Below are positions 1,077-11,101 of a stretch of 17,579 bases of DNA, in pieces; positions within the stretch are counted from its first letter, which is position 1, and every line of letters starts with the position of its first letter. A program made the position numbers and the translations under genes. The DNA is from Candidatus Poribacteria bacterium. GTDB taxonomy: Bacteria > Abyssobacteria > SURF-5. The notes under the pieces are model-generated. The model saw only the letters and a list, made by a program, of their open reading frames with translations, was not told the origin of the DNA and made no database searches. Location of the stretch: NCBI GenBank assembly GCA_016215705.1, contig JACRIR010000132.1, positions 1 through 17,579 of the forward strand. The letters run 5' to 3'.

Positions 1077-2414
1077 CTACTCTATGCCGTATCTTCTCAT
1101 TTTCCGCCAAAGCGTATTTCGCGAAACGCCGAGCTCGGCGGCGGTGCGGTTGCGATTGCCGAAATGCTTGCTTAGAACGTTGCGGATGGTTTCAGCCTCA
1201 GCGTTATCGAGCGGCAGCATGCGCGCTTTCGCAGCAGTCGTAGACTCGGTGACCGCTGCCACAATGTGACTTGGCAAGTCCTCGAGCTGAATCGTGTCGC
1301 CGATGCAGACAACAAACGCATGTTCGATGGCGTTCTCGAGTTCGCGAACGTTCCCGGGGAACGGATAGCCCATGAGCGCGGCCATCACGCGTTCCGAACA
1401 GCGCGCGATCCGGCGCCCCTGAAGGGCATTAAACCGCTCGATGAAATGATTGACCAGCAGAGGGACGTCCTCACGCCTCTCCGACAGAGACGGCAGCGAG
1501 ATGCGCACGACATTCAGCCGGAAATAAAGGTCGGGGCGGAACCGTTTCCTTTGGACCTCGCGCGCGAGGTTCTTGTTGGTGCACGCGATGACCCTCACGT
1601 CGGCCCGGATGGAGCGGTTGTCTCCCAGCGGCGTGTACTCTTTGGTTTCAAGCACGCGAAGGAGCTTTACCTGCATGGCGAGCGAGAGCTCGCCTATCTC
1701 GTCAAGCATGATAGTGCCGCCCTCGGCGATTGCGAACCGGCCCGGCTTGTCTTTCCGCGCGTCCGTGAAAGCGCCGCGCTTGTATCCGAACAGCTCCGAC
1801 TCGAGCAATTGGTCAGGCAGCGCCGCGCAGTTAATCGGAACAAAGGGCTTGGATCGCCTCGAGCCCAAGTGATGTATCGCGCGGGCGGCCAACTCCTTGC
1901 CCGTGCCCGACTCGCCCTCGATGAGGACGTTGCTCTGGCTGTTCGCGACAAGCGGAATCACCTCGAATATCTTATGCATCGACGGGCTCTTGCTGACGAT
2001 GTCCTCAAAGACGTATGAACCCATGAGCCGTTTCCGCAACTCTGTGACCGCGGAAAGATCGCGAAACATCTCGACGCCGCCGAGCACCTTGCCGTCTTCG
2101 GCCACAAGAGCAGAGGTCGAGATTGCGATGGGCAGTCTGCGCCCATCCTTCGTAAGAATATTCACCTCGACGGCCTCGCTCTTCTCGCGGGTCTTGATGC
2201 TTCGTTTGAGCGGGCACTCGACCTCGCAAAAATCCGCCTGAAACACCTGGTGGCAGGGTCGGCCGATTACTTCCTCCTTGCCGTAGCCGGTCAACTCCTC
2301 CGCCATGCGGTTGAACGAAGTGATGCGTCCGTCGGCGTCAATCGTGAAGATGCCGTGGGAAATCGTGTCGAAAATGAGGGGAAAAAAACGCGTGTCGAGT
2401 TCTTTCTGAGACAT
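1077..2414 (-). CDS. Sigma-54-dependent activator: PAS, AAA+, Fis-type HTH
   Basis: A 445-residue bacterial enhancer-binding protein of the NtrC class. An N-terminal PAS domain (about 8-125) carries C54, C63 and C67 (C-x8-C-x3-C), which could hold a cofactor or sense redox state. The AAA+ domain has Walker A GESGTGKE (167-174), the sigma-54 contact loop as GAFTDA (214-219) instead of GAFTGA, Walker B TIMLDE (234-239) and the conserved FRPDLYFRL and FPGNVREL blocks. A Fis-type helix-turn-helix ends the protein (NRTAAELGVSRNTLWRK). There is no receiver domain, so control is by the PAS domain, not phosphorylation. The SD GAGG lies 6 bases before the ATG. It is divergent from the redox operon, which has a sigma-54 promoter, so that operon is the likely target (inference). 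GCGAAAG heptads directly follow its stop codon. Confidence 0.93.
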   Translation of the reverse strand: MSQKELDTRFFPLIFDTISHGIFTIDADGRITSFNRMAEELTGYGKEEVIGRPCHQVFQADFCEVECPLKRSIKTREKSEAVEVNILTKDGRRLPIAISTSALVAEDGKVLGGVEMFRDLSAVTELRKRLMGSYVFEDIVSKSPSMHKIFEVIPLVANSQSNVLIEGESGTGKELAARAIHHLGSRRSKPFVPINCAALPDQLLESELFGYKRGAFTDARKDKPGRFAIAEGGTIMLDEIGELSLAMQVKLLRVLETKEYTPLGDNRSIRADVRVIACTNKNLAREVQRKRFRPDLYFRLNVVRISLPSLSERREDVPLLVNHFIERFNALQGRRIARCSERVMAALMGYPFPGNVRELENAIEHAFVVCIGDTIQLEDLPSHIVAAVTESTTAAKARMLPLDNAEAETIRNVLSKHFGNRNRTAAELGVSRNTLWRKMRRYGIE

Positions 2415-2968: not shown

Positions 2969-4351
2969 ATGAAAAAATATGCTTATTATGTGGAGCCGTA
3001 TAATGAGACGGAGCGGCCACGGCGTTTCCTCGAAGCGTTTGCCGCGATTCTCAAACACTCGAACTACGGATTTGTGTTGGACACGTACTCGCGCACGAGC
3101 ACTAAATGCGCCCGCTGCGCGTGCAACTGTCAGGTGTTTGAGCAGAGCGGCGACCCGAGGGACGTGCCGTGCTACCGCACCGAACTTCTGCTGAGAGTGT
3201 ACCGCCGATATTTTACGCTGAACGGCACGCTCCGGGCGAGGCTCTTCAACGGGTTTGTATTGACCGACGACTACATCGACGAGATGGCCGAGGCAATGTA
3301 TCGGTGCACGGCCTGTCGCAGGTGCAAGTTCGGCTGCCCGATGGGAGTCGACCACGGTCTGATGACGCATCTCTCTCGCTGGATTCTGGCGGAGATAGGC
3401 ATTGTGCCGAAAGCGCTGGTGGTCGCCACCCGCGAACAACTCCAGGGAAAGACGGGCAACACGTCAGCAATCCCGGTGGTCGCCCTCAAGGACACCTGCG
3501 AGTTTCTTGAAGAGGAACTTCTGGAGAACTACAATTTGCCCGCGAAATTTCCGATGGACGTCGAGGGCGCCGAATACGTCTTCTTCCCGGCTGTCAGCGA
3601 CTACCTGCTCGAGCCCGACACGCTCATGGGCAACGCAGCGGTCATGCACCTAACGGGTGGCTCCTGGACCATCGGAACCGGCTATTACGACGGCATCAAT
3701 TACGGCCTCTTCTACAACGACGCTCTTCTCGACCGGATCGTGAGCAAAGAGGCGCAAGAGATAAAGCGCCTCAAGGCGAAGAAAGCGCTCATCGGCGAGT
3801 GCGGCCACGCTTCGCGCTCGGCCAAGGCCTTCCTCCCGACTTTCTGCGGCGGCAAGAACGCTCCGCCGGTCATCAACATAATGGAATATTCGCACAAAGC
3901 GCTGCTGGACGGACGGCTGAAGGTGAAGTCTGGCGCCATCCACGAGCGGGTCACGTATCACGATCCGTGCAACATCGCGCGCTCGAAATGGATAATCAAC
4001 CAGCCGCGCGAACTCCTCGAGGCAATCTGCAAGGATTTCGTCGATATGGTTCCCTGCGGCCAGATGAACATCTGCTGTGGCGGCGGCGCCGGAACGGTCT
4101 CGGTTGACGAAATCCGCTCCTTCCGCACGGGCATCGGCGGTCGCACGAAGGCGGACCAGATTCGAAAGACGGGCGCGAAGTATCTCGTCGCGCCATGCGC
4201 CAACTGCAAGAAGCAGTTGCGGGAAGTGTGCGAAGACAACGAACTTCACGACGTGCAGGTGGTCGGCCTTCATGACCTGATTCTGAAGGCGCTCGACCTC
4301 GAGGCCTACGGTATAACTCCACCGAAAAAAGATGACGAGGGAAAGGAATAG
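2969..4351 (+). CDS. Cytoplasmic Fe-S subunit with HdrD-type CCG domain (HmcF/DsrK/TmcB-like)
   Basis: A 460-residue protein without signal peptide or membrane segment, about the size of HmcF. Two cubane [4Fe-4S] sites are visible: C47, C50, C54 and C68, and C113-x2-C116-x2-C119-x3-C123-P. The C-terminal half has a complete CCG motif: C334, C369-C370 (CCGGGAG) and C410-x2-C413. In HdrB/HdrD/DsrK this motif carries the catalytic Fe-S centre for disulfide- or thiol-linked electron transfer. The first CCG repeat is degenerate (C278 in ECGHAS). I chose the ATG at 2969: AGGA lies 7 bases upstream and the start falls after the sigma-54 promoter, whereas the in-frame ATG at 2882 lies upstream of that promoter. 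It is the first gene of the operon, 8 bases before the b-haem membrane gene. The physiological thiol or disulfide partner is unknown. Confidence 0.88.
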   Translation: MKKYAYYVEPYNETERPRRFLEAFAAILKHSNYGFVLDTYSRTSTKCARCACNCQVFEQSGDPRDVPCYRTELLLRVYRRYFTLNGTLRARLFNGFVLTDDYIDEMAEAMYRCTACRRCKFGCPMGVDHGLMTHLSRWILAEIGIVPKALVVATREQLQGKTGNTSAIPVVALKDTCEFLEEELLENYNLPAKFPMDVEGAEYVFFPAVSDYLLEPDTLMGNAAVMHLTGGSWTIGTGYYDGINYGLFYNDALLDRIVSKEAQEIKRLKAKKALIGECGHASRSAKAFLPTFCGGKNAPPVINIMEYSHKALLDGRLKVKSGAIHERVTYHDPCNIARSKWIINQPRELLEAICKDFVDMVPCGQMNICCGGGAGTVSVDEIRSFRTGIGGRTKADQIRKTGAKYLVAPCANCKKQLREVCEDNELHDVQVVGLHDLILKALDLEAYGITPPKKDDEGKE

Positions 4352-4359
4352 GAATAGAC

Positions 4360-5064
4360 ATGGAACAGTGGTTACAGTGGGCGCGCGGTCCTGCCTTCAA
4401 GTTTGCGTTTCTTCTGATGGTTTTGGGACTGCTCCGCCAGATAATTCTGGCCGTTATCGGAATCGCGCAGGCGTGGAATCGCGCAGGTGATAAGACCATT
4501 CCGAAAAAAGTTGTCTTTCAGACGACGCTGCAGTGGTTGTTCCCTCTCAAGAAGCTGAACAACAACCGTCCCGCGTACAGCGCCATGTCGGTCATATTCC
4601 ATATAGGGCTTATCTTCACGCCAGTTCTCCTGCTCCCCCACATAGAGTTGTGGAAGCGTGGGCTCGGGATAGCCTGGCCGTCGCTGCCGCATGCCCTGGC
4701 GGACGTGTTCACGCTCGTTACAGTTGCGGCCGCATTGGGCCTGATCATCGGCCGGCTCGGGAACAAGGAGTCGAGGCGTATCAGCCGGGTGCAGGATATC
4801 GCGCTTCCCCCGTTGATGGCGCTTCCGTTCATCACGGGTTACCTGGCGATGCATCCGGTGTTGAACCCGATCGGCTACAACGTGGTCATGTTCATCCACG
4901 TGATGAGCGCAAACGCGATATTCGCACTAATTCCGTTCTCGAAGCTCGGTCACATAATCCTTCTTCCGACGACTCAACTCGTTTCGGAATTGGGCTGGCA
5001 TTTCCCGGCTGCGTCCGGCGTTGATGTCAGCCGCACCCTAAAGAAAGAGAACGTGCCGATATGA
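4360..5064 (+). CDS. Membrane b-type cytochrome subunit (HmcE/DsrM/NarI-like)
   Basis: A 234-residue integral membrane protein with about five hydrophobic segments (roughly 10-35, 72-93, 108-132, 145-165 and 172-198). Histidines sit in or beside them (SVIFHIGLIF, LLPHIELW, GYLAMHP, MFIHVMSAN, KLGHII), suitable as axial ligands for two b haems as in NarI and DsrM. In Hmc, Dsr and Tmc complexes this subunit passes electrons across the membrane between quinone and the HdrD-like protein. Its ribosome site overlaps the stop codon of the preceding gene, and its TGA overlaps the next ATG (ATGA at 5061-5064), so translation of all three is coupled. The C-terminal tail (SRTLKKEN) is charged. Which haem ligands are real cannot be told from sequence alone. 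Confidence 0.85.
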   Translation: MEQWLQWARGPAFKFAFLLMVLGLLRQIILAVIGIAQAWNRAGDKTIPKKVVFQTTLQWLFPLKKLNNNRPAYSAMSVIFHIGLIFTPVLLLPHIELWKRGLGIAWPSLPHALADVFTLVTVAAALGLIIGRLGNKESRRISRVQDIALPPLMALPFITGYLAMHPVLNPIGYNVVMFIHVMSANAIFALIPFSKLGHIILLPTTQLVSELGWHFPAASGVDVSRTLKKENVPI

Positions 5065-5858
5065 ACCAGATGAGCATTCTGACAGATGTAACTCTGTGCA
5101 TCGGTTGCGAAGAGTGCGTCAAGGCGTGCAAGAACACAAATGGCACGGGCGAGGACCAGCCGTGGCGCTGGCAGCGAAAAATCGACGACCTCTCAGCAAG
5201 CCGATGGACAACGATCGTCTCGCGCCCCGAGAAACATTATGTGCGGAAGCAATGCCGGCATTGTCTTGAGCCCGCATGCGCGTCGGTCTGTCCCGTTGGC
5301 GCAATGCACAAGACACCGGAGGGGCCGGTCGTCTACAACCCGAAAATCTGCATGGGCTGCCGCTACTGCATGATGGCATGCCCGTATGGAATCCCGCGGT
5401 ACACATGGTCGGAGGCGGTCCCCTATGTCCGCAAGTGCATCATGTGTTACGACAAGATCAAGAGCGGCGAACTTCAGCAACCCGCCTGCACGGCGGCGTG
5501 CCCGCAGAAGGCGACAATCTACGGGAACCGCGAAGAGCTGCTTCAGATTGCGCATAAGCGAATCGAGGAAAAGCCCGACCTCTACATACCCAAGGTTTAC
5601 GGGGAACACGACGTCGGCGGGACCTCGGTTCTGTATTTGTCGGATGTCAGCCTTGATTTCCTCGGATTAAAGAAGGAAATGGACGACAAGCCGCTGCCAC
5701 CAAGGACGTGGGCGTTCCTTAAGGAAGTGCCTTATGTGTTCGTGGGAGTCGGCGCACTGATGTACGGGACTTACTGGGTCGTCGAGCGGCGGATGCGTCT
5801 CGAAGCCGAAAGACGCGGCGAGCCGTGGCCACCTTCCCATGAAAAAGGGGAAAGGTGA
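5061..5858 (+). CDS. Four-cluster ferredoxin subunit with C-terminal membrane anchor (HmcB/DsrO/HybA-like)
   Basis: A 265-residue polyferredoxin of the type found with NrfD-like membrane proteins. Four cysteine groups bind [4Fe-4S] clusters: C13-x2-C16-x2-C19-x3-C23, CRHCLEPACASVCP, CMGCRYCMMACP, and CIMC paired with CTAACP. They would wire electrons between the membrane NrfD-like subunit and a redox partner. A hydrophobic segment (about 223-242, VPYVFVGVGALMYGTYWVV) followed by ERRMRLEAERR anchors the C terminus, as in HybA and HmcB. No Tat or Sec signal is visible: cluster 1 starts at residue 13 and ATGA overlap fixes the start, so the side of the membrane is uncertain. The last residues (EKGER) and stop codon lie inside a purine-rich heptad repeat. 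Confidence 0.88.
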   Translation: MNQMSILTDVTLCIGCEECVKACKNTNGTGEDQPWRWQRKIDDLSASRWTTIVSRPEKHYVRKQCRHCLEPACASVCPVGAMHKTPEGPVVYNPKICMGCRYCMMACPYGIPRYTWSEAVPYVRKCIMCYDKIKSGELQQPACTAACPQKATIYGNREELLQIAHKRIEEKPDLYIPKVYGEHDVGGTSVLYLSDVSLDFLGLKKEMDDKPLPPRTWAFLKEVPYVFVGVGALMYGTYWVVERRMRLEAERRGEPWPPSHEKGER

Positions 5859-5868
5859 AAGGGCAAAG
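5848..5868 (+). repeat. Heptad tandem repeat overlapping the ferredoxin stop codon
   Basis: Units GGGAAAG, GTGAAAG, GGCAAAG in tandem, then GCGAAAAG. The TGA stop (5856-5858) of the ferredoxin gene is part of the second unit, so the repeat forms the end of the coding region. Confidence 0.5.
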
Positions 5869-5876
5869 GCGAAAAG

Positions 5877-5975
5877 GAGACTCTTCGTTTCGCTCCCAGG
5901 AAACAGGGTTTAACAGTATGGGGGTTTGTTGTTGGAATTGTAGCCCGCCGCAGCGGGTAGCAGATTCAGAATGAC
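5877..5975 (+). repeat. Split copy of repeat R1 with a 70-base insert
   Basis: GAGACTCTTCGTTTCGCTC (5877-5895) resembles the left part of R1, and TCAGAATGAC (5966-5975) matches the right part. The 70 bases between contain a GTTTAAC segment and a GCCCGCCGCAGCGGGT hairpin that is itself repeat-like. The gap lies between the ferredoxin and NrfD-fusion genes, inside the operon. Confidence 0.35.
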
Positions 5976-6010
5976 TTGACGAGAGAGACACAAACCAGAG
6001 GAAAAAAACG

Positions 6011-7951
6011 ATGAGACTACGGTTAGTCAAAGGGATTCTGTGGTTTTTTGCGGGGTTGGCCGCGGTAGTGACGGTCTTCCGATTCTTCAAGGGGCTTGGG
6101 GCCGTCACCGCGCTCACCGACACAACGCCGTGGGGACTCTGGATCGGATTCGACGTGCTTGGAGGAGTCGCCCTGGCGGCAGGCGGGTTCGTTATTGCGG
6201 CCACCGTCTATATTTTTCACATGGAGAAGTACCACGCTATTGTGAGACCGGCGGTGCTGACCGCCTTTTTGGGGTATGCCGCAGTTGTCGGCGGCCTGAT
6301 GTTTGACATCGGGATTCCATGGAATATCTGGCGGCCAATGTTTTTCTGGCAGCATCATTCGGCTCTCTTCGAGGTGGCATGGTGCGTGATGCTCTACTTC
6401 ACCGTGCTCCAACTCGAGTTCGCGCCGGTGGTGCTCGAGCGGATGAAACACCCGCTGCTTCAGACGATCTATAAGATAGTGAAATTCTCCACGCTCCCGC
6501 TTGTGATCCTGGGAATCATCCTCTCGACGCTGCACCAGTCGTCGCTCGGCACTTTGTTCCTGATCATGCCGTATCGCGTGCATCCGTTGTGGTATTCACC
6601 GATCCTGCCGATCCTGTTCTACATATCGGCGATCGGGCTCGGTCTCTCGATGGTGATCACCGAATCAATGGTGAGCACGTGGCTATATAAGAAACACCTC
6701 GAAAAAGACCTGCTCAATGGTCTCGGGAAAACTGCAGCCTGGGTCCTCGGGCTGTATGCCTTCTTAAAGCTGGGCGATTTGGCAGTCAACAACAAGCTCC
6801 ACTATTTGTTCGACGGCTCGTGGGAAAGCAATCTGTTCATTTTCGAGTTGCTCATCAGTGCGATCCTGCCCACTATCATGTTCGCGTCGCCCAAGATAAG
6901 GCAGAGCACGGGCGGCCTTGCGACCGCCGCCGGACTCGCGGTGTTCGGCTTCGTGTTGAACCGGATCGATGTCAGCGGCCTTTCCACCATTCAGGCGACC
7001 GGCTCGCTTTACTTCCCATCATGGGCCGAGTTCGCCATCAGCATCGGCATCGTCTCTGCAGCGGCCCTGGCGTTCTTCTTCTTCGTGGAAAACTTCTTCG
7101 TGTACGAAGAGCCCTGCGGAGAAAAAGCGGAAAAATATGATGTGCCAGTGGCCGATCCGGTCACCGGCGTGCGGCTGAGTTGGTCTCCTCTTGCCAATGC
7201 GCGGTTGTACTCGCTCATCTTCATCGTGGCAGTGGCGTTCGGCTTCGCGATGCTGCCGGACTACGCGGTCAAAGGCGCGACACCGGAGAAAACGCCGGTC
7301 AATAAGGCGCGGCGAGTTGACGGACTGCAGGCAAAAACGGAAAATGCCGCTCTCTACTCGTATGCTGTCTTCAATCCCGAAAGAGGCAACAACCCCGAAA
7401 ACGGGGAAAAGATAGAGATGCTTCTGATCGACGGCGACCGCAAGAACAAGTTCGTCCTCTTCAATCACGAGGGTCATCAGGCGAAGAACGGAGGCAAGGA
7501 GTCGTGCGGCATATGCCATCACATGAACAAGCCGCTGGATAAAGCGAGTTCGTGCGACGAGTGCCACCGCGACATGTTTGTGGCGACCGACACGTTCGAC
7601 CACGAGTTTCATCGCGACAAACTGAAGGCCAGTGGCGGCTGCGTCAAGTGCCATAAAGACCCGGCTCAGTCGAAGAACCGCCTGACAACGACTCCGTGCA
7701 AGGATTGTCACAAGAAAATGCGGGCGCCGAACAGTTTCGTGAAGATTGCCGAGAAGGACCAAACAGGAATTGCGCCCGGCTACATGACGGCAATGCACAA
7801 ACTCTGTGTCGAATGCCACAAGCAGAAGCAAACCGAAAAGCCGGAACTCGCGCCCCATCTCGCCCGTTGTGGCGCTTGTCATCAAGGGTTCGAGGAGTCG
7901 ATGCTGACCTCGCTCGAGCCATACCCGCAGGAAGAATCGGGAGCGCTCTAG
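6011..7951 (+). CDS. NrfD/HybB-like quinone-type membrane subunit fused to a hexahaem c-type cytochrome domain
   Basis: A 646-residue protein in two parts. Residues 1 to about 360 form an NrfD/HybB/HmcC-like core with about ten hydrophobic helices, including the family blocks TDTTPWGLWIGFD and HSALFEVAW. Such subunits bind quinone and pair with HmcB-like ferredoxins. An eleventh helix (about 398-416) precedes a hydrophilic domain with six CXXCH haem c sites, at C499, C515, C544, C563, C599 and C620. Extra histidines (NHEGH, CHH, FDHEFH, MHKLC, PHLARC) can supply sixth ligands, as in class III (c3/c7-type) cytochromes. Haem c is attached in the periplasm, and the odd helix count would put the domain there if the N terminus is cytoplasmic. 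HmcC/DsrP proteins normally end after the helices and work with a separate cytochrome. AGAGGA lies 8 bases before the ATG. It follows the ferredoxin by 152 repeat-bearing bases. Confidence 0.9.
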   Translation: MRLRLVKGILWFFAGLAAVVTVFRFFKGLGAVTALTDTTPWGLWIGFDVLGGVALAAGGFVIAATVYIFHMEKYHAIVRPAVLTAFLGYAAVVGGLMFDIGIPWNIWRPMFFWQHHSALFEVAWCVMLYFTVLQLEFAPVVLERMKHPLLQTIYKIVKFSTLPLVILGIILSTLHQSSLGTLFLIMPYRVHPLWYSPILPILFYISAIGLGLSMVITESMVSTWLYKKHLEKDLLNGLGKTAAWVLGLYAFLKLGDLAVNNKLHYLFDGSWESNLFIFELLISAILPTIMFASPKIRQSTGGLATAAGLAVFGFVLNRIDVSGLSTIQATGSLYFPSWAEFAISIGIVSAAALAFFFFVENFFVYEEPCGEKAEKYDVPVADPVTGVRLSWSPLANARLYSLIFIVAVAFGFAMLPDYAVKGATPEKTPVNKARRVDGLQAKTENAALYSYAVFNPERGNNPENGEKIEMLLIDGDRKNKFVLFNHEGHQAKNGGKESCGICHHMNKPLDKASSCDECHRDMFVATDTFDHEFHRDKLKASGGCVKCHKDPAQSKNRLTTTPCKDCHKKMRAPNSFVKIAEKDQTGIAPGYMTAMHKLCVECHKQKQTEKPELAPHLARCGACHQGFEESMLTSLEPYPQEESGAL

Positions 7952-8017: not shown

Positions 8018-8413
8018 ATGATAGAAAGAATGCGTCACCTAATGAAAACAAAAAAGATCGCAATCATAGACGACGAGCCGGATATTGTGTTCTATCTGGC
8101 TTCGGCCTTGCAGGACAATGGATTCGAGGTGTGCACGGCCACAAACGCTCACGAGGGGCTTGAGCTTATTCGCTCGCAGCGACCCGACCTCGTGTGTCTG
8201 GACATCCTCATGCCGGAGCAGACCGGTTTCTCGCTTTACCGGAAGATCAAAGAAGACAAGTCGCTGAAAGGCGTTCGGATCCTCATAATCAGCGCGCTTA
8301 GTATGGAACAGGAGATGGCGCGTATCGGCTCTGCGCTGAAGCCCGACGGCTACATCGAGAAGCCCGTCGACATCTCCTTGTTCATAACGACCGTTCAGAG
8401 GCTGGCAGCATGA
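8018..8413 (+). CDS. Single-domain response regulator (receiver only)
   Basis: A 131-residue CheY-like receiver. Acidic pocket D18-D19, phospho-acceptor D62 (VCLDILMP), the switch serine in IISAL and the lysine in YIEKPV are all present. There is no output domain, so it acts by binding another protein or in a phosphorelay. AAAGG lies about 9 bases before the ATG at 8018; a second in-frame ATG at 8042 (MKTKKIAIIDDE) is also possible and would remove only eight residues. It follows the redox operon by 66 bases and precedes the histidine kinase, its probable partner. Its place beside an Hmc-like operon recalls rrf1 of the hmc operon in Desulfovibrio (known biology; the link here is inference). 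Confidence 0.88.
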   Translation: MIERMRHLMKTKKIAIIDDEPDIVFYLASALQDNGFEVCTATNAHEGLELIRSQRPDLVCLDILMPEQTGFSLYRKIKEDKSLKGVRILIISALSMEQEMARIGSALKPDGYIEKPVDISLFITTVQRLAA

Positions 8414-8489: not shown

Positions 8490-10304
8490 ATGGCAGTACC
8501 CGAATGGCGACACTGGTTGCACACACAGCTTTTTGAGCATGTGCCGTGTAACATCGCCGTCATAGACCGCAACTATCACATTGTGGAGAACAACCACACC
8601 TTCGCGGAAGTTTTCGGCGAGGGGCAGGGCCGTCCTTGCTACGAGGTGTATAAAGGCAGGTCGGAACGATGCGAAAACTGCATGGCGACCGAGACGTTCA
8701 AGGACGGCAAGGTGCGCGTCAACGACGAAGTTGGCATCGACCGCAAAGGGCGGACCGCTCATTACATCGTCCACATCGCGCCCATCTTCGATAGAAATGG
8801 GGACATCCCCTATCTGATCGAGATGTCGACCGACGTGACCGAGACCAAGCGCTTGCAGCGCGAATACCAGATACTCTTCGAGCGCGTCCCCTGCTTCGTG
8901 TCCGTGTTGAACCGGGACCTGCGGATTGTGCGCGCCAATGAGCGCTTCCGCGAAATTTTCGGCGAGACCACCGGCCAGCACTGTTTCGAGATTTATAAAC
9001 GACGCACGGAAAAGTGCGAAGATTGCCTCGTCGAAAAAACCTTCTTCGATGGGCAAACCCACAGCGGCGCGCATGTCGGCATAAGCAAGGACGGCAAGCG
9101 CACGCACTACTTCGTGAATACTTCGCCTCTTTCGCGGGGCGACCCCCACATCTCGCACGTCATCGAGATGGGGCTGGATATGACAGAGGTCCACAAGCTT
9201 GAGGTCGAGCTCGCGCGCGCAAACGCTCTCCGCGAGACCCTGATCGAGAACTCGATCGACGGAGTGATCGCCACCAACCCCGAGGGCAAAGTCACGATTT
9301 TCAATCCCGCCGCAGAATCCATGCTCAAGTACAAGAGCGAAGACCTCATTGGACGCCATCCCCCGGATTTGCTCCTGCCGGCCGAGTTCGAGGAGGCGAT
9401 GACTGCCCACAGAGATATCTGCGTGTTGCCCGAGGCCACAGTCACGGCGAGCGACGGCGAAGAGATTCCCGTTCGGTTCTCCGGCGTGGCTCTCAAGCGC
9501 GGCAAGGAATCCATCGGCAGCGCGATCTTTTTGCAGGACCTCCGGAAGATCAAGCAACTCGAGCGCGAAAAAATCGACGCCGAGCGCCTCGCAGCCGTGG
9601 GTCAAACAGTCGCAGGCCTCGCGCACGGCATCAAGAACATCCTCACGGGCCTCGAGGGAGGAATGTACGTCGTCAACTCGGGCTTGCAGAAAGGCCAGAA
9701 GGACCGGGTGGACGCCGGATGGGAGATGCTCAAACGAAATATCGCCAAGATTTCCGCTTTGGTCAAGAATCTGCTAAACTTCTCCAAAGGCCGTACGCCG
9801 CATGTGGCGCTAGTTAACCCCAACGACATGGTGCGCGACATCATGTCGCTTTATCAAGACGCCGCGAGGCAAGATGGAATAGACCTGATTGCCGAGACGG
9901 ACGACACGGTCCGCCCTGCCGCGTTCGACCCGGAAGAGATACATACGTGCTTGGCAAATCTGGTTTCCAATGCGCTTGACGCCTGCCAGGTGAGCGAAAA
10001 GACGAAGTGCAGCGTGACCATTCGGTGCAAAGAAGAGGGCAATTCGCTCATATACGAAGTCGCCGACGAAGGCTCCGGCATGGACTACGAAATCAAACAG
10101 AAGGTTTTCACCAACTTCTTTACGACCAAGGGCACCGGCGGCACAGGTATGGGACTCTTGCTGACGCGCAAGATCGTGCAAGAACACGGCGGCAAGATCA
10201 CCGTCGAGTCTACACCGGGAGAAGGCTCGCTCTTCCGCCTTGTGTTCCCGCGCGACCGCTTGCCGCATGTAACCGAGGGGAAGCCCGAAGCCAAATCGGC
10301 ATAA
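8490..10304 (+). CDS. Soluble PAS-PAS-PAS histidine kinase with cysteine-bearing PAS domains
   Basis: A 604-residue sensor kinase with no membrane segment, so it senses a cytoplasmic signal. Two tandem, clearly duplicated PAS domains (about 12-118 and 127-232) each carry FE-x-VPC plus a C-x10-C-x2-C triad: C20, C50, C61, C64, and C135, C165, C176, C179. A third PAS (about 240-355) lacks them. The HisKA helix has phospho-acceptor H379 (GLAHGIKNIL). The ATPase domain shows N-box NLVSNALDAC, DEGSGM, and FTNFFTTKGTGGTGMGL. GAGG lies 8 bases before the ATG. It is flanked by two receiver proteins, its likely targets. The cysteine clusters suggest a metal, Fe-S or thiol redox sensor (inference); a purely structural role is possible. 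Confidence 0.92.
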   Translation: MAVPEWRHWLHTQLFEHVPCNIAVIDRNYHIVENNHTFAEVFGEGQGRPCYEVYKGRSERCENCMATETFKDGKVRVNDEVGIDRKGRTAHYIVHIAPIFDRNGDIPYLIEMSTDVTETKRLQREYQILFERVPCFVSVLNRDLRIVRANERFREIFGETTGQHCFEIYKRRTEKCEDCLVEKTFFDGQTHSGAHVGISKDGKRTHYFVNTSPLSRGDPHISHVIEMGLDMTEVHKLEVELARANALRETLIENSIDGVIATNPEGKVTIFNPAAESMLKYKSEDLIGRHPPDLLLPAEFEEAMTAHRDICVLPEATVTASDGEEIPVRFSGVALKRGKESIGSAIFLQDLRKIKQLEREKIDAERLAAVGQTVAGLAHGIKNILTGLEGGMYVVNSGLQKGQKDRVDAGWEMLKRNIAKISALVKNLLNFSKGRTPHVALVNPNDMVRDIMSLYQDAARQDGIDLIAETDDTVRPAAFDPEEIHTCLANLVSNALDACQVSEKTKCSVTIRCKEEGNSLIYEVADEGSGMDYEIKQKVFTNFFTTKGTGGTGMGLLLTRKIVQEHGGKITVESTPGEGSLFRLVFPRDRLPHVTEGKPEAKSA

Positions 10305-10546: not shown

Positions 10547-11101
10547 ATGCCAACTCCGTCAGAAAAAACCATTCTCGTCGTAGATGATGAGCCCGATGTT
10601 GTGTTCTTCCTCCGGGCGGCCCTCGAAGACGCAGGGTTTAACGTGATCACAGCCTCCAACGGCGATGAAGCTCTCAAGAAGGTCAAGGAACGCCAGCCGG
10701 ACTTCATTTCGTGCGACCTCGTCATGCCGAAGAAATCAGGCATCAAGTTCCTTTATGAACTACGTCACAACAAAGATTGGTCGAGGATTCCGGTCGTGAT
10801 CGTGACCGCGCACGCAAAGGATGAGCTCGGCAGCCACGACCTGCGGGAAATTCTTGACGGCAAGACCCTCTCCGGCCCACACACGTATCTCGAGAAACCG
10901 GTCAGCGCCGAAAACTTTGTGAATATGGTCAAGCGAGAACTTGCGATCCCGATAGAAGTGGAGGGTTCCGCAAAAACCGGAGAATTGGCTGCTGTATCTG
11001 ACGCTGAAGCTCTCAAGAAACAGATTCAGGCGCTGCTCGCATCGGCTGATCCTGACGCTCTCAGGAAAGCCGCCGAGATTCTTCGTGGCCAGAAGGCGTA
11101 G
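10547..11101 (+). CDS. Response regulator: receiver with short C-terminal extension
   Basis: A 184-residue protein. Residues 1-130 form a receiver: D13-D14 pocket, phospho-acceptor D57 (ISCDLVMP), VTAHAK with the switch threonine, and K in YLEKPV. The insert between VTAHAK and YLEKPV is longer than usual (about 25 residues). The roughly 50-residue tail is rich in A, E, K and L, looks helical (EALKKQIQALLASADPDALRKAAEIL) and has no DNA-binding motif that I recognise. The tail may be a docking or dimer helix. AAAGGA lies 8 bases before the ATG. It shares the DDEPDxVFxL start with the receiver at 8018-8413, so the two may have arisen by duplication or compete for the same kinase. Confidence 0.88.
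   Translation: MPTPSEKTILVVDDEPDVVFFLRAALEDAGFNVITASNGDEALKKVKERQPDFISCDLVMPKKSGIKFLYELRHNKDWSRIPVVIVTAHAKDELGSHDLREILDGKTLSGPHTYLEKPVSAENFVNMVKRELAIPIEVEGSAKTGELAAVSDAEALKKQIQALLASADPDALRKAAEILRGQKA

Follow-up and report, generated by a model that had tools for sequence, protein, structure and literature searches.

The gene at positions 6,011–7,951 of the window (the whole stretch of 17,579 nucleotides analysed here) is a real single-chain fusion of a quinone-interacting NrfD subunit of the HmcC type with a hexahaem cytochrome of the c3/HmcA type. It lies in a cluster of four genes (Table 1) whose products we infer from their sequences to form a transmembrane redox complex, and this four-protein electron-transfer complex with its fused subunit is apparently undescribed. 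Outside sulfate reducers the genes of the complex are almost absent, and they often adjoin the core genes of sulfite reduction. The route by which electrons reach sulfite reduction, and the conservation of energy along it, are unsettled, and nearly all knowledge of them comes from Desulfobacterota; the cluster encodes a compact complex with a fixed connection between quinone and haem, whose gene order links it to dsrAB in sulfate reducers not yet in culture.

Table 1. Position, strand and length of the features of the window, in order of position
Feature	Position	Strand	Length	Remarks
PAS / sigma-54-interacting transcriptional regulator	1077–2414	-		divergent neighbour, conserved in Abyssubacteria and Planctomycetota
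DsrK/HmcF/TmcB-like cytoplasmic iron-sulfur protein	2969–4351	+	460 aa	two 4Cys [4Fe-4S] motifs, one CCG motif
TmcC/HmcE-like (NarI-type) membrane subunit	4360–5064	+	234 aa	TmcC 123 bits, HmcE 114 bits
HmcB-like ferredoxin	5061–5858	+	265 aa	C-terminal hydrophobic helix, then conserved RR; no N-terminal Tat leader
Fused NrfD/HmcC-type quinone subunit and hexahaem cytochrome c	6011–7951	+	646 aa	
NrfD domain, HmcC/HybB-type	6011–7135	+	residues ~1–375	ten helices
TM11	7187–7270	+	residues ~393–420	should take the C terminus across the membrane
Six CXXCH motifs	7505–7519, 7553–7567, 7640–7654, 7697–7711, 7805–7819, 7868–7882 (span 7505–7882)	+		c3-like block and two further haems
DVU0259-type single-domain response regulator	8042–8413	+		conserved neighbour
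PAS sensor histidine kinase	8490–10304	+		conserved neighbour
Second response regulator	10547–11101	+		conserved neighbour

The fused chain

The 646 codons of the fused gene are free of stops, and both halves of its product are recognised by Pfam. Residues 33–319 belong to the NrfD family (PF03916, 71.7 bits against a gathering score of 25.8), and the tail is a class III cytochrome c by its match to Cytochrom_CIII (PF02085, 52.9 bits against 22.9), with a further match to Cytochrome_C7 (31.7 bits against 24.8). Among NCBIfam models the NrfD side is most similar to HmcC (333 bits over residues 17–366, below the equivalog cut-off of 550 bits for NF045714), followed by the HybB-type PRK10881 (288 bits), while part of the tail matches HmcA (31.7 bits). 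A sequence search of the PDB with the NrfD half gave no match.

The CXXCH motifs start at C499, C515, C544, C563, C599 and C620, and all six are invariant in 20 of 20 aligned fused proteins, which span Abyssubacteria, Planctomycetota and Ignavibacteria/Bacteroidota. Precisely six additional histidines of the tail are invariant in the same 20 proteins, four of them (H504, H531, H534 and H596) inside the stretch spanned by the motifs and two (H486 and H489) just upstream of it; H616, present in the window protein, is not conserved. Six haems and six conserved second ligands would fit complete bis-His ligation. The order of these residues along the tail, H-x2-H ... CxxCHH ... CxxCH ... H-x2-H ... 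CxxCH ... CxxCH, resembles that of cytochrome c3 plus two further haems. In a phmmer search the first block of the tail matched cytochrome c3, and a profile of the tail matches the 16-haem HmcA (1z1n, 1.3e-7) and cytochromes c3.

An AlphaFold2 model of the whole protein contains 11 long helices (from 2–26 to 393–413) and is weak (pLDDT 51.6), as is a model of the tail alone (48.1); both are too poor for haem distances, and only the match of the NrfD fold was used. In this low-confidence model 363 residues of the NrfD part (1–375) can be superposed on the alternative complex III subunit ActC (Z 27.7). The extra helix TM11 was found in 13 of the 13 fused proteins tested, and CXXCH haem attachment occurs on the P-side of the membrane. 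Since both termini of ActC are on the N-side (PMC8076601), one added helix should leave the haem tail on the P-side, and TM11 should in this model place it in the periplasm.

A scan of genome contigs identified seven relatives: four in Planctomycetota, one in Abyssobacteria SURF_17 (82% identical, truncated by the contig end), one in Ignavibacteria and one in a Bacteroidetes MAG. Each of the six full-length proteins among them has six CXXCH motifs. Whole-genome searches added the other Abyssubacteria, the planctomycete G028 and, from the class of G008 (the Ignavibacteria class), seven more genomes. In a maximum-likelihood tree of 62 NrfD domains, which included 14 six-haem fusions and left out the seven later Ignavibacteria-class proteins, these 14 form one clade (100/99) and thus share one origin. 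Two other HmcC-type NrfD-cytochrome fusions, with three CXXCH motifs (L035, genome G306) and at least 11 (L036, genome G132), fall outside this clade, and NrfD-cytochrome fusions therefore arose more than once. A second, more divergent fused protein is present in each of the four dsrA-bearing planctomycetes (L039–L042, in G005, G003, G007 and G004), within the same four-gene order in three of the four.

The first-pass annotation, made from the sequence of the window, had described about eleven hydrophobic helices followed in one frame by six CXXCH motifs, and the continuous reading frame and the modelled helices agree with this. Every motif position that it gave is present in the translation, and the surplus of histidines that it had noted for bis-His ligation is borne out by the six that are invariant. 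The topology check that it had called for, provided by the 11 modelled helices and the universal presence of TM11 in the proteins tested, supports, together with the fold match and the N-side termini of ActC, its placing of the C terminus in the periplasm by helix 11, and with the conservation of the fusion its one-chain quinone/cytochrome module is upheld. It had also recognised that a frameshift or assembly error near positions 7,150–7,300 would undo this description. That such an event, or a chimeric assembly, united an hmcC gene with a cytochrome gene is practically out of the question: uninterrupted fusions recur in independent genomes across several phyla, with the linker helix and the haem ligands conserved, and these intact relatives rule out an artefact. 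Of the in-frame TAG/TGA codons reported within the G004 and G007 matches to dsrA and to the second fusion, those at the two loci read in frame (L021, L041) are the natural end of the gene, with the match running on beyond it.

The four-gene cluster and known complexes

The DsrK-like protein has its CCG motif residues at C334, C369–C370 and C410xxC413, and its cluster cysteines are conserved in at least 17 of 18 proteins; they would fit two [4Fe-4S] clusters and one CCG cluster. Its matches to CCG (48 bits), DsrK (252), HmcF (198) and TmcB (189) are all below the curated cut-offs, and an in-frame start upstream of the gene, at 2,882, is not conserved. The TmcC/HmcE-like subunit is predicted to bind two b haems, with His 81, 94, 180 and 198 invariant (20/20), and the 16 invariant cysteines of the HmcB-like ferredoxin (20/20) correspond to four [4Fe-4S] clusters. 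Gene order is constant on all contigs that include the genes, with extra genes inserted between the first two at two loci (L011 and L012). In the window the HmcB-like gene and the fused gene lie 152 bases apart (gap at 5,859–6,010), whereas in relatives these genes overlap. The regulatory genes near the cluster (Table 1) have their like at tmc loci, where similar regulators are found nearby.

The fused complex is a variant of the Hmc/Tmc/DsrMKJOP kind and a member of none of them, all four products scoring below the curated Hmc, Tmc and Dsr cut-offs in the window and likewise in a second example. Like the Hmc complex of Desulfovibrio (HmcABCDEF), the cluster combines a CCG protein, a NarI-like b cytochrome, an NrfD protein and a ferredoxin, with subunits of the HmcB, HmcC, HmcE and HmcF types and a fused tail related to HmcA and cytochrome c3. 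However, its gene order differs, its HmcB-like subunit is without the leader region, and it has no separate 16-haem HmcA, the cytochrome being fused to HmcC instead; the homologues of HmcB (240 bits), HmcE (114) and HmcF (198) fall below cut-offs of 420, 275 and 750 bits, and no gene for the small hydrophobic HmcD lies between or beside the four window genes. With Tmc (TmcABCD) it shares a membrane b subunit whose top match is TmcC, a TmcB homologue, a c3-type cytochrome and a DVU0259-type regulator nearby, but Tmc is without an NrfD subunit (PMC4215793) and its TmcA is separate, whereas the cluster has an NrfD chain. Neither TmcD nor a separate TmcA is encoded in the window, and the host's own Tmc-like operon, which includes TmcD, stands apart from the fused cluster.

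DsrMKJOP is comparable in that the CCG protein matches DsrK best, that it too has haem-b, ferredoxin, NrfD and c-haem parts, and that its genes are neighbours of the fused cluster in some genomes. It differs in having DsrJ (three haems) on one chain and DsrP on another, and in the Tat-type leader of DsrO; the 252 bits of the cluster's CCG protein are below the DsrK cut-off of 400, and no DsrJ- or DsrO-type gene was found in the window. The two- to four-gene modules of Nhc and NrfD-like proteins with octahaem cytochromes (PMC8076601, PMC10924467) likewise unite a ferredoxin, an NrfD protein and a multihaem cytochrome, but the cytochrome is a chain of its own and there is no CCG or NarI-like partner.

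The search for NrfD proteins with C-terminal cytochromes and for their neighbours, which the first-pass annotation had recommended, thus recovered the fusion in three lineages with the four-gene order kept. Its view of an undescribed version of a known system agrees with the open-access literature, in which no prior description of the fused complex was found; an earlier account elsewhere is possible. PMC8076601 treats NrfD-like subunits without using the words fused or fusion, and a paper on dsr genes in Kapabacteria (PMC6338057) mentions neither NrfD nor Hmc. The suggestion that the complex may dispense with a separate HmcA or DsrJ holds for the cluster itself, since a separate multihaem cytochrome gene is absent from the window and from the relatives' clusters read, but not for the host, which also encodes DsrMKJOP with DsrJ and a 14-haem HmcA/TmcA-like cytochrome. 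As the host has both a complete DsrMKJOP and a Tmc-like complex, the fused complex is an addition and not a replacement. The early reading of the complex therefore stands as to the fusion and the one-chain module; it did not contain the link to dsrAB described below.

The side of the membrane on which the HmcB-like subunit lies bears on how the complex might work. All 20 HmcB-like subunits are without an N-terminal leader, each starting 10–18 residues before the first cluster cysteine, their matches begin only at position 36–44 of the HmcB, HybA and DsrO profiles, and the cluster has no gene for a signal-bearing partner. These observations favour an arrangement in which the NrfD-HmcB pair faces the cytoplasm, so that electrons would pass between cytoplasmic Fe-S centres and both the quinone and the fused periplasmic haems, the C-terminal helix being a mere anchor; this would be compatible with either direction of electron flow. 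We regard it as somewhat unlikely, as the RR conserved behind the C-terminal helix points to a C terminus in the cytoplasm and hence to an exported Fe-S domain, and for a signal-less relative, export together with a Tat-bearing hydrogenase has been proposed (PMC10924467).

Association with dissimilatory sulfite reduction

Among 182 genomes of the Ignavibacteria class, dsrA is present in nine and the fusion in eight, all eight of which have dsrA (Fisher p = 3.5e-13, the kinship of the genomes being ignored). In a sample of 392 Planctomycetota only four genomes have dsrA, all four with the fusion, and four of the five fusion carriers have dsrA (p = 5e-9, kinship again ignored); the planctomycete carriers were known from the earlier contig scan, and their presence in this sample is thus not independent. 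The co-occurrence of the fusion with dsrA reflects shared ancestry in part. No significant association was detected in a sample of the whole phylum Bacteroidota (p = 0.15), where 57 other genomes have dsrA without the fusion. Because most of these are small genomes, whose Dsr we take to be the oxidative one of green sulfur bacteria, we attribute the lack of significance to them and consider the link to be with reductive rather than oxidative Dsr. The planctomycete G028 (L057, L145) encodes the fusion, DsrK and DsrC, and its contig with dsrC stops shortly after that gene; no match to dsrA or aprA was obtained in a search of its genome, and no trace of dsrD was found at the contig end.

Gene order ties the cluster to the same pathway. 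At seven loci of the Ignavibacteria class it lies upstream of dsrA-dsrB-dsrD-dsrN on the same strand, with the fusion 2–7 kb from dsrA, and where the contig goes on a dsrL-like gene, dsrC and dsrMK(J) follow downstream, also on that strand. In the planctomycete G003, dsrPOJKM, dsrC, dsrN, dsrD and dsrBA follow the cluster within ~25 kb. A true DsrK of the DsrMKJOP type is encoded elsewhere in every fusion-bearing genome examined.

The nearest named relative of the window organism is Candidatus Abyssobacteria SURF_17, in which sat and aprAB were reported to be present while dsrAB and dsrD were not found (PMC6121073). The window genome has AprA, Qmo-like genes, a dsrN-type gene and a true DsrK (G000:C2, 744 bits) within a complete dsrMKJOP that includes DsrJ; its DsrC, like those of others, has both C-terminal cysteines. 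We did not find dsrA in three Abyssubacteria genomes, but in all three the contig carrying dsrMKJOP-dsrC-dsrN breaks inside the 3' end of dsrD, directly upstream of dsrN, which is the point where dsrAB would follow in relatives. These breaks are at the end of L143 (G000:C2:8000-21990) and the start of L144 (G002:C48) and L152 (G001:C64). The contig-end peptide, ending LDYWSSGSTT..., matches DsrD (1UCR, 9.7e-7; tested for the window genome, the other two reading alike). As the contigs end within dsrD, the missing dsrAB and dsrD most likely represent an assembly or binning gap, and the published absence of these genes from Abyssubacteria is probably explained in the same way. The fusion is a candidate marker of sulfate respiration in the Abyssubacteria, Planctomycetota and Ignavibacteria/Bacteroidota lineages.

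Proposed role and direction of electron flow

We consider it probable that the four proteins make up a compact complex related to Hmc and Tmc, which serves sulfate/sulfite respiration by linking periplasmic electrons and menaquinone with a disulfide in the cytoplasm, probably the DsrC trisulfide. The periplasmic tail would exchange electrons with the soluble c3 pool and the NrfD part would oxidise or reduce menaquinone. Electrons would cross the membrane by way of the TmcC-like subunit with its two b haems and reach the DsrK-like CCG subunit. The latter would reduce a disulfide in the cytoplasm, most likely the trisulfide of DsrC that DsrAB produces, so that the fused complex would be a second electron entry point beside DsrMKJOP; energy might be conserved via the ion path of NrfD. 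Several observations weigh against parts of this proposal. DsrMKJOP is already there to serve DsrC, and the partner disulfide could be another; dsrA was not found in the Abyssubacteria, probably through the assembly gap, and G028 has the fusion, DsrK and DsrC with no match to dsrA or aprA; and the HmcB-like subunit is without a Tat leader although its C-terminal tail is like that of exported relatives. We advance more tentatively, as possible but short of probable, that the complex represents a further dedicated class of sulfate-respiration complex, so far in Abyssubacteria, Planctomycetota and Ignavibacteria/Bacteroidota, in which electrons from c3 and menaquinol meet on one chain and pass to DsrC in parallel to DsrMKJOP.

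In Desulfovibrio, Hmc has been proposed to work outward and Tmc inward (PMC4215793), and flow through the fused complex could be the opposite of that proposed here. A cytoplasmic donor of low potential (ferredoxin or thiols) would then feed the DsrK-like and b-haem subunits, and these in turn the hexahaem tail and the periplasmic c3 pool, a direction that has been proposed for Hmc in fermentative or syntrophic growth. Mutant fitness in Desulfovibrio alaskensis G20 led to such an interpretation of its Hmc (PMC4215793), and the Qrc and Tmc-like complexes of the host could manage the inward flow. Even so, this direction seems unlikely, given that the tight adjacency to dsrAB in the Ignavibacteria-class genomes fits delivery to sulfite reduction better. 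It is highly improbable that the main task of the haem tail is to supply an outward route (electron transfer to minerals or out of the cell, or detoxification) and that the association with dsr is incidental. Such routes are often served by multihaem cytochromes, and two other NrfD-cytochrome fusions exist outside the clade; however, no genes for an outer-membrane conduit were noticed in the clusters read, and the six-haem clade tracks dsrA in two lineages.

Whichever way electrons pass, quinone site and haems are held in a fixed link by lying on one chain. This makes the protein a good structural target and suits it to testing direct electron exchange between NrfD-type subunits and multihaem cytochromes.

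In the window genome there are also two Qrc-type gene sets with QrcB above its cut-off (L151, G000:C7; L156, G000:C13), and the Tmc-like operon (L150, G000:C22, 3851-8808), with TmcD above its cut-off, includes a cytochrome with 14 haems that seems to combine features of HmcA and TmcA. An HmcF/TmcB-like CCG protein is fused with a DVU0259-type response-regulator domain in one frame of 575 aa (L148, G000:C243, 5684-7411). A stand-alone DsrMK-like gene pair lies apart from DsrMKJOP at L147 (G000:C232, 6549-9076), and such pairs also occur at the loci L169 (8283-10837) and L172 (6357-8892). An NrfD/ferredoxin cluster of the window genome (L061, G000:C225, 8899-16535) encodes a 10-haem cytochrome and a GcvH-domain protein.
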